Shown here piece after piece: positions 18,164-20,183 of a stretch of 64,000 nt of DNA (the first letter of the stretch is position 1; each line of letters opens with the position of its first letter). The stretch is from positions 1 to 64,000 of the forward strand of contig JANXCH010000009.1 of assembly GCA_025060295.1 (NCBI GenBank). Reading direction: 5' to 3'. The DNA is from Dehalococcoidia bacterium. Lineage in GTDB: Bacteria; Chloroflexota; Dehalococcoidia; Lucifugimonadales; HRBIN23. The notes beneath the pieces were generated by a model. It was not told the origin of the DNA, made no database searches, and saw only the letters and a program-made list of their open reading frames with translations. Position numbers and translations under genes: made by a program.

Positions 18164-18219
18164 GGTCCTCCCTCACCTGCTAGGGTAGCGGGTTGGGGGC
18201 CGATGCGCAAGGTGGGGGA

Positions 18220-18777
18220 CTAGTCCCGCTCCATTTGGACCCACGAGGGAGTGGTGGTATGCACAGTCGCTCGAACCCGTTCCTGGAGGGCAGGCAAGGT
18301 CTCTCGGGGGGCCGAGGGGAGGTTAAGGGCACGGCTAAGGGTGTCGGAGAGCGGCGGGAAGGTCTCTCGGGGGGCCGAGGGGAGATTAAGGGCACGGCTA
18401 ACGGTGTCGGTCAGGGGAAGGAAAGATTCGTGAAATCCAGAGGGGAGCCACAGGGCGCGGCGCACACCCTCCAACAGGTTAAGCATATAAGTCAAAGGTG
18501 GGGGCACAGAGGGTTCCACCTTCGCAGGAATGCCTGGCATCGGTGGAGGGCCGGGTGGCATAGGGGGGATGCGAATCAGATCACCTTTATCGTCGGGTGG
18601 AGGGTCGGGCAGGATGGTGATGGGGGGTTCTTTCGTGGGAGCGGGAGGGGGGTCTGGGGTCGTTGCGGGGGGTGGCTCCTTGGCCAACAGGTACAACCCC
18701 CAGGGGGCGAACAGATACCCCAGGAGGAACGCCCCAAGGGCTACCCCCAAGGCGGTGAGCAGGCGTTGCCGCCACAT
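18220..18777 (-). CDS. Membrane-anchored Pro-rich protein with 21-residue repeats
   Basis: I do not recognise the family. The 185-residue product has an N-terminal anchor (about residues 6-32, LTALGVALGAFLLGYLFAP), then a long Pro/Thr/Asp-rich stretch (about 35-90) and a C-terminal part built of a 21-residue unit. Two copies are near perfect (LSRALNLPSAPRET core) and a third, upstream, is degenerate (RALWLPSGFHES). The unit looks amphipathic. It is the last of three minus-strand genes driven by the strong promoter at 20146-20174 and begins 12 bases after the preceding stop. A role as a surface or periplasmic stalk partner of the two neighbouring phage-tail-like proteins is inference. Confidence 0.65.
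   Translation of the reverse strand: MWRQRLLTALGVALGAFLLGYLFAPWGLYLLAKEPPPATTPDPPPAPTKEPPITILPDPPPDDKGDLIRIPPMPPGPPPMPGIPAKVEPSVPPPLTYMLNLLEGVRRALWLPSGFHESFLPLTDTVSRALNLPSAPRETFPPLSDTLSRALNLPSAPRETLPALQERVRATVHTTTPSWVQMERD
18298..18423. repeat. Tandem 63-bp coding repeat
   Basis: Two adjacent 63-bp units (18298-18360 and 18361-18423) are close to identical for about the first 50 bases and keep reading frame inside the gene 18220-18777. A third, diverged unit is visible only in protein sequence. The pattern indicates slippage or unequal crossover, not a mobile element. Confidence 0.75.
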
Positions 18778-18789
18778 AGGCCCACTCCG

Positions 18790-19410
18790 TTAGGGCAGGA
18801 TAAAGGTGAGGAAGAACTCCACACTGGAACCGGCAGGCTTGTGTACCGGCGGGAAGGTCACGCGGTTGAACAGGAGAGTGCGGTTGGCGTCCCGCAGGCC
18901 CGCCTCACGATAGACCTCATCGGCAGTGGTGGTACCGATGCGGAAAACCATCGTCACGCTAGTGCTGGCGACATCCACGGCAGGGGTATAAAGGCGAGAC
19001 ACGAAGCGGACGGCCCGCTCCAGTGCCGTGTCCGAGGCGGTGGGCGGGTTGCACACCCCGTCAGCGCCACAGTCGCCCACCTCCAGCACTGTCAGGCTTA
19101 GGTTGTCGCCAGGGATGCTAGCGGGGGTCCAGAAGGGGCCGAAGGCTTCGGCAAGGAAGGCAGCCTTACCGATGTCGGTGATAATGTTGCGGGCCTCGTG
19201 GCGGGCCACCACCTGTCCGTCGGGGTCGTAGAGGACCACGGCCATGCGCCCCTGCAGGCCGAGGGGGCCCGCCTCCCCTTCGGGCACCACCCCAACCACA
19301 GGGGGCGACTGTCCCGTGCGGGTGCGGACGAAGGCATAGCCTTGCAGGGCGAGACCCCCCAACAAGGCCACGAGGCTGATCACCAGGATGGCTATTCTCG
19401 CTTTTGCCAT
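18790..19410 (-). CDS. Membrane-anchored protein with a phage-tail-like domain (paralog B)
   Basis: A 206-residue protein with one N-terminal membrane anchor (about 5-28) and an extracytoplasmic beta domain. The domain resembles phage tail or fibre proteins: a LYDPDGQVV opening, NIITDIGKAAFLAEAF, VLEVGDCGADGVCNPP, SDTALERAV, then the EVYREAGLRD strand and LLFNRVTFPPVHKP. The order of a loop with NPPTxSDTALE followed by an E(V/I)GL-type strand is commonly seen in tail structural proteins. It is clearly paralogous to the next gene upstream, sharing DCGAD, VCNPPT and SDTALER. GGAGGG precedes the ATG at 19410. No capsid, portal or tail-tape gene is near, so this is probably a host-encoded surface protein. 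Confidence 0.68.
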   Translation of the reverse strand: MAKARIAILVISLVALLGGLALQGYAFVRTRTGQSPPVVGVVPEGEAGPLGLQGRMAVVLYDPDGQVVARHEARNIITDIGKAAFLAEAFGPFWTPASIPGDNLSLTVLEVGDCGADGVCNPPTASDTALERAVRFVSRLYTPAVDVASTSVTMVFRIGTTTADEVYREAGLRDANRTLLFNRVTFPPVHKPAGSSVEFFLTFILP

Positions 19411-19458
19411 AGCGTCCCTCCTATGAGCAGGCCAAGGATGCACAGCGGGCTCTTTCGT

Positions 19459-20112
19459 TTAGGGGAAACGGAACTCCATGGATACCACAAGGAATTCGGC
19501 GTTAGTATAGACTACGGGGGGGGTGAGCAGCACACGGTTGACCAAGACTCCACCAGAACTGCTAACAATACCCACTTCACGAATGGTACCCCCACCACCA
19601 CCGATACGGTATTCAAGGGATACCGTTTTGTTCGGGATGTCCAAAGCACTAGAGTGGAAGGCCATTGTATGCAAGTATCTCTCCAATGCGGTGTCACTAG
19701 GGGTGGGCGGATTGCAGACGTTATCCGCGCCACAATCGCCTAACTGCACAACTCCCGGCAGGTGAGCATCTGCTCCTCCGGGGTTGGGATCTATGGGGTT
19801 GAATGCGTCGAATGCCTCACTGAGAATGGATGCTTTGCCCCGGTGGGTGATGAGGTTGTTGACGGAGCGCTCGTCCACCAGGTTGCCCTGGGAGTCATAG
19901 AGGCGGATGTGCATGCGCCCCCGCAGGGCCAGGCTCTCCCGCAAGCCATCGGATGGGGTCTCGGCGGCTGGGGAGGTGTGCTGGGTAAGGGTGGGAGCCT
20001 GGGTGGGGGAGGTCTTGGAACGGGTAAGGGCCACCTGCACAGCGGAGCCGATAAGGAAGGCTAGCGCCCCCACCAACAACAGCACCGGCAGAAACAGTCC
20101 ACGCCTGCGCAT
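19459..20112 (-). CDS. Membrane-anchored protein with a phage-tail-like domain (paralog A)
   Basis: The 217-residue paralog of the preceding entry has an Arg-rich start, one membrane anchor (about 8-29), a Thr/Pro/Ser linker, then the same beta domain: LRGRMHIRLYDSQGN, NNLITHRGKASILSEAF, VQLGDCGADNVCNPPTPSD, TALERYL, TIREVGIVSSSGG and VLVNRVLLTPPVV. The Cys pair in DCGADNVC is conserved in both paralogs and may form a disulfide. Two ATGs compete: 20118 abuts GGGAGG with no spacing, while 20112 is 6 nt away, so I take 20112. It is the first gene of a three-gene unit under a near-consensus promoter. Function is unknown; surface attachment or assembly is a guess. Confidence 0.7.
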   Translation of the reverse strand: MRRRGLFLPVLLLVGALAFLIGSAVQVALTRSKTSPTQAPTLTQHTSPAAETPSDGLRESLALRGRMHIRLYDSQGNLVDERSVNNLITHRGKASILSEAFDAFNPIDPNPGGADAHLPGVVQLGDCGADNVCNPPTPSDTALERYLHTMAFHSSALDIPNKTVSLEYRIGGGGGTIREVGIVSSSGGVLVNRVLLTPPVVYTNAEFLVVSMEFRFP

Positions 20113-20145
20113 GCGCATCCTCCCATTAGCAAGTGTGGACGCACC

Positions 20146-20174
20146 ACTATAGCAAACCCACAAGAGGGTGTCAA
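20146..20174 (-). promoter_or_regulatory. Strong promoter of the surface-protein cluster
   Basis: Minus strand TTGACA (20174-20169) and TATAGT (20151-20146) are exactly 17 nt apart and preceded by CCC. It lies between xerD and the first phage-tail-like gene, separating the cluster from xerD transcription. Confidence 0.8.
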
Positions 20175-20183
20175 GGGAGTGTG

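Follow-up and report, generated by a model that had tools for sequence, protein, structure and literature searches.

Can a domain of the type found on viral tails serve as a resident membrane protein of a bacterium? The question is raised by three adjacent genes, here called A, B and C, in a stretch of 64,000 nucleotides from a Dehalococcoidia bacterium (GenBank assembly GCA_025060295.1, contig JANXCH010000009.1), which we refer to as the window. The three open reading frames lie within positions 18220-20118 in the order A, B, C on the minus strand. An earlier reading made from the letters alone (the sequence-only reading) had described A and B as anchored paralogues with a tail-like domain and C as a Pro-rich partner, and had considered a host surface structure a real possibility. 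The features considered below are as follows.

20146..20174, minus strand: predicted sigma-70-type promoter upstream of A (TTGACA-17-TATAGT, extended -10)
19459..20112, minus strand: gene A, 217 aa, N-terminal membrane helix and predicted tail-type beta domain
19462..19929, minus strand: beta domain of A, about residues 62-217, from the alignment with B and phage relatives
18790..19410, minus strand: gene B, 206 aa, N-terminal membrane helix and predicted tail-type beta domain
19318..19407, minus strand: membrane helix of B, from hydrophobicity and the AlphaFold model, in which residues 2-31 are helical
18793..19263, minus strand: beta domain of B, residues 50-206, from Foldseek and the AlphaFold model, in which the strand core is mostly at pLDDT above 85
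18220..18777, minus strand: gene C, 185 aa, N-terminal membrane helix, Pro-rich stretch and 21-residue repeats
18259..18447, minus strand: repeat region of C, LPSGFHESFLPLTDTVSRALN / LPSAPRETFPPLSDTLSRALN / LPSAPRETLPALQERVRATVH
18199..20181, no strand: variable slot holding the trio, from comparison with a same-genus genome

The gene descriptions given by the sequence-only reading proved accurate with respect to reading frames, helices, shared motifs, repeats and the promoter match. Aligned over 163 residues, the paralogues A and B are 39% identical (E = 1e-31) and share the motifs DCGAD, VCNPPT, SDTALER and RE(V/A)G(I/L); each consists of one N-terminal helix followed by the same beta domain. 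All three proteins carry a single strongly hydrophobic N-terminal segment, with best 19-residue Kyte-Doolittle means of 2.51, 2.41 and 2.13 for A, B and C, respectively. Inspection by eye revealed no prepilin motif in either A or B, and a pilin-type anchor was dropped from consideration. Translation of A may start at an ATG at 20112 or 20118, the former being better spaced to a GGAGG sequence as judged by eye. C is an anchored Pro-rich protein (38 of 185 residues are Pro) whose repeats sit at its end; at the DNA level they comprise one 63-nt tandem pair of 89% identity, and a third, more diverged copy is visible by eye in the translation.

The promoter sequence upstream of A matches the consensus at 11 of 12 positions, against a chance expectation of 0.5 (mean over shuffles of the region), and lies about 34 bp from the ATG at 20112. 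The intergenic gaps are short (48 bp between A and B, 12 bp between B and C), so co-transcription of the three genes is plausible from the sequence. Of the near-consensus promoter that all three genes had been proposed to share, the site itself thus stands, while a single transcript from it is a plausible extension. A search for RNA families gave no match.

The assignment of the beta domain to a phage-tail type is supported by sequence profiles, by structure prediction aided by phage relatives and by structural comparison. Residues 61-203 of B match the viral family phrog_5417 with an E value of 1e-12, covering nearly the whole family, and A matches the same family with an E value of 0.0028. 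Residues 96-193 of B also match PF12571 (E = 9.8e-4), with a score of 19.6 bits that does not reach the curated cut-off of 23; the PF12571 search with A gave no match. In an alignment of B with 36 phage relatives, the VGD and T-L motifs and the REAGL and NRV strands are in register. An AlphaFold model of B built from a 4-sequence alignment had a pLDDT of 59.5, and addition of the 36 phage relatives raised this value to 79.9, as would be expected if the alignment with the phage proteins is structurally right.

The models and Foldseek comparisons cover B alone. Against viral models, the first model of B (pLDDT 59.5) gave 21 matches at E<=1e-3. Tail fibres appear in this set, from Stenotrophomonas phage Ponderosa and from Xanthomonas phage phi31, and so do proteins of haloarchaeal tailed and lipothrix-type viruses. 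Against the PDB, the second model gave a sole match below 1e-3, a tail chain of Haloferax tailed virus 1 (E = 6.7e-5, probability 1.00). The TM-scores of the Foldseek matches are modest (0.3-0.5), which sets the kinship of B to tail proteins at the level of the fold. The tail-like beta fold anticipated by the sequence-only reading was thus recovered in the models of B. Other searches were less productive: a profile restricted to phage proteins of the TDLQ-type subgroup did not recover A or B, although the aligned motifs coincide; single-protein searches found no relatives in 58 related genomes or viral contigs; genome contigs searched with A1 gave none; a single-protein search of phages returned one weak tail-collar match (E = 0.2); and a sequence search for a solved-structure match returned none.

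A clue to where such a domain acts comes from an unanchored phrog_5417 copy (E = 5.8e-20) in a 6 Mb Chloroflexota genome (L100:16429-16902). Baseplate and PAAR genes precede it, and a tail-fibre-like gene follows directly; this context places the domain at the tail tip. The contractile-tail-like cluster to which it belongs (L100:9764-18102) includes baseplate wedge proteins, PAAR and the phrog_5417 protein, and near-identical gene arrangements are found in two further genomes of that genus, L042 and L044.

The surroundings of the trio are of a different nature. The genes tested beside it are housekeeping genes, with an xerC/D-type recombinase before the trio, rpiB after it and a cytidylate-kinase-like gene; uvrC and ABC permeases were recognized as further neighbours by reading of the sequence. 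Tests of seven genes, at the trio and next to it, found no capsid, portal, terminase, tail or lysis gene except the tail-type domain itself, in agreement with what the sequence-only reading had stated about virion genes. With these neighbours, and with a same-genus genome in which the same flanks occur without the trio, the locus does not appear as part of a virion or tailocin cluster. Similarity to the same-genus genome ends at the xerC stop codon and returns just upstream of rpiB; between these points the same-genus genome has, in place of the 1,983 bp with the trio, 1,448 bp that are unrelated and contain a methyltransferase-like ORF. The trio was either gained in the source genome or lost in the same-genus genome. 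Given this replacement (L028:7054-8501), the xerC-rpiB slot may be a place where genes turn over. The exact A-B-C trio is present only in the source genome among the genomes searched and is absent from the same locus of the sister species, and the expectation that the three genes would stay together across genomes was not borne out.

What does recur is a gene pair. With A and B as query, a search of 393 genomes of the class yielded one remote anchored relative worth following (G102, E = 3.2e-6); others were reached through phrog_5417 and a mixed profile. The combined profile matched at E<=0.01 in 22 of the 197 genomes of the window's order, a count that includes the source genome and two weak matches left out of the family, and also in two genomes of another Chloroflexota class. 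Weak matches in L049, L050, L051, L072 and L073 (E values of 0.002-0.006) were excluded from the family, and a match in L005 (G134) was rejected as due to chance because it falls in an apparent P-type ATPase. In all, about 20 genomes from at least two Chloroflexota classes contain remote anchored relatives. Their anchored protein bears the motif EGIxVHGxWxIEVxDPDG...NALT, and a hydrophobic N-terminal segment is present in 18 of 20 such proteins, compared with 1 of 80 among the viral relatives. Two relatives show what by eye looks like a lipobox instead of such an anchor.

In nearly all of these loci, the gene directly downstream encodes a protein with a signal peptide and with repeats, each about 20 residues long, of the form VxVxExIxVxD; the gap between the two genes is mostly no more than about 50 bp and never exceeds 216 bp. 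When a strict criterion for these repeats was applied to the 268 genes called in the related loci, it selected 10, each of them the immediate downstream neighbour of an anchored gene; among 73 window genes it selected none. The figure of 10 is conservative because several partners with degenerate repeats escape the criterion. Some partners match dockerin, DUF11, Big, PKD or IPTL-CTERM. The genes upstream of the pairs vary among lineages, which indicates that the recurring unit, hereafter the module, is the pair itself. Searches of two phage collections with the module proteins, including an alignment of a 4-member subset, found no module, and the module proteins match phage families weakly. 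The proposal of a host surface system thus draws support from the recurring pair, if not from conservation of the exact trio. We found no literature on anchored tail-type proteins in Chloroflexota among open-licence papers.

Several individual loci show additional features. At the end of four partners (L087:7547-8302, L090:7358-8119, L092:5152-5922 and L094:7493-8074), an SGSC stretch with its Cys is followed by a hydrophobic segment and then by basic residues, an arrangement that resembles C-terminal sorting signals. Two other partners (L060:677-1354 and L029:13639-14529) appear to join repeats and a dockerin-like domain. At two loci (L054:645-1229 and L057:2278-2694), the anchored gene is directly preceded by a gene for a lipoprotein, perhaps a third module component; the two lipoproteins have a C-terminal domain in common (FFLxLVEPxE...VVGxTRVDAVVTVND). 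One module copy (L084:6293-6838, in G045) is broken by an in-frame stop, with no repeat partner found adjoining it.

Is the trio itself a member of this module? A profile of the module built without A and B, run against 403 window ORFs, placed A at the top (E = 7e-6) and B next (E = 0.004), with the third-ranked ORF at 1.4; the module recruits had been found by a profile that contained A and B, and this ranking is thus not fully independent. A comparison of A and B with the module by hhalign gave probabilities of 95-96% over about 45-59 columns, which correspond to the first beta hairpin, and the module compared with a profile of phage proteins plus A and B gave 89% probability over the first beta hairpin alone. 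A whole-genome search with the module profile did not find A or B at E<=1e-4. The N-terminal anchor of the module is present in A and B as a hydrophobic segment, which the model of B renders as a helix. C lies directly downstream, as a partner should, and has 21-residue repeats; these lack the VxVxExIxVxD pattern and score like shuffled sequences. Kinship of the C repeats to those of the module partners was rejected, since 1106 of 5000 shuffles score as high, and no clear homologue of C was found in 194 genomes of the order, where the matches are weak (best E = 8e-4). C is thus a counterpart of the repeat partner by position, without significant kinship in sequence. Given a match confined to the hairpin, the incomplete independence of the profile test, the miss in the whole-genome search and the mismatch of C, we treat the trio as a possible divergent relative of the module.

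We favor, with moderate confidence, a reading in which A and B are host-owned proteins that use a membrane-anchored tail-collar-type domain to hold a surface fibre or adhesin. The N-terminal helix would hold a beta domain of the viral tail-fibre collar or adapter type outside the cytoplasmic membrane. By analogy with P2-like tail fibres, whose collar domain has been suggested to attach the fibre to the baseplate (PMC6363177), this domain may provide a fixed base for fibre docking. The co-encoded repeat protein, here the Pro-rich C, would be the stalk or fibre that reaches through or is attached to the outer coat, and adhesion or attachment of the surface layer would be its likely use. S-layered envelopes without an outer membrane have been reported in Dehalococcoidia (PMC10284905), and in such an envelope a base formed by A and B would face the wall and the surface layer. 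A more far-reaching version, which we put forward only tentatively, is that scattered Chloroflexota of at least two classes possess an undescribed structure akin to an inside-out tail tip, in which an anchored collar with a docked repeat fibre serves adhesion or fastening of the surface layer, with A-B-C as a divergent form in which two subunits would make up the collar and a Pro-rich protein the stalk.

Other explanations make different use of the same observations. A and B could be true anchored tail-type proteins taken from a virus independently of the module, with C an unrelated Pro-rich envelope protein; this explanation, which we consider possible if somewhat doubtful, accounts for the closer match of whole-length B to phrog_5417 (E = 1e-12) than to the module (E = 0.004), for the weak matches of the module proteins to phage families and for a C that has neither a repeat match nor a clear homologue. 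It leaves aside the N-terminal hairpin that links all three groups, together with the shared anchor and gene order, in which an anchored gene is followed by that of an anchored or secreted repeat protein.

A second departure from our favored surface-structure reading would make A and B functionless, as decayed tail genes of a prophage or tailocin, or as a former lysogenic-conversion gene with a signal anchor. The closest named relatives of the domain are indeed viral, one species has the trio where its sister lacks it, and A is lower in GC (58.9%) and GC3 (67.4%) than most of its neighbours. The frames of A and B are intact, though, behind a strong promoter match, no virion gene adjoins them, and the anchored family with its partner recurs in about 20 genomes while two phage collections yielded none; we regard such a remnant as unlikely. 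Similarly improbable in our estimation is a role in phage exclusion, in which a displayed tail-fibre-type domain acts as a decoy that competes for receptors or blocks docking of incoming tails. Fold homology to viral tail proteins, a patchy distribution and a variable xerC-rpiB slot with other content in the sister species would all fit defence-type genes. Against this role, most relatives have as partner a repeat protein that is secreted and that sometimes carries adhesion-type or sorting domains, which is more like a surface structure, and the pairs in other genomes adjoin differing housekeeping genes, with no defence genes noted there.

If the surface-structure reading is correct, a viral tail adapter domain would be serving as a resident membrane protein in bacteria about whose envelopes little is understood. 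The Chloroflexota gene pair would then offer a defined surface system that can be tested by experiment, and the position of the free copy in L100 near baseplate genes hints at a function for the viral family phrog_5417, to which no role has been assigned.

The arrangement in A and B is distinct from those of the nearest known systems. PF12571 (Phage_tail_fib, DUF3751), of which B is a partial profile match, is the N-terminal collar domain of P2-like tail fibres; in those phages it begins a long fibre, whereas in A and B it stands alone behind a membrane helix. The motif positions of phrog_5417 coincide with those of B, but its viral members lack the CGADxVCNPPT insertion of A and B and rarely have the hydrophobic N-terminal segment that both proteins carry. 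The best solved-structure match to B, chain BD of 9h4p from Haloferax tailed virus 1, is a virion tail protein of 953 residues, with a TM-score of 0.44 by the query length of B. The free copy in L100 comprises the same domain as A and B but has no membrane anchor and resides amid baseplate and tail-fibre genes. From the Chloroflexota module (L075-L096 and L029), A and B differ in the second half of the protein, in their two tandem copies and in a C without the VxVxExIxVxD repeat; with it they share the N-terminal anchor, the first beta hairpin and a surface-type protein encoded downstream.
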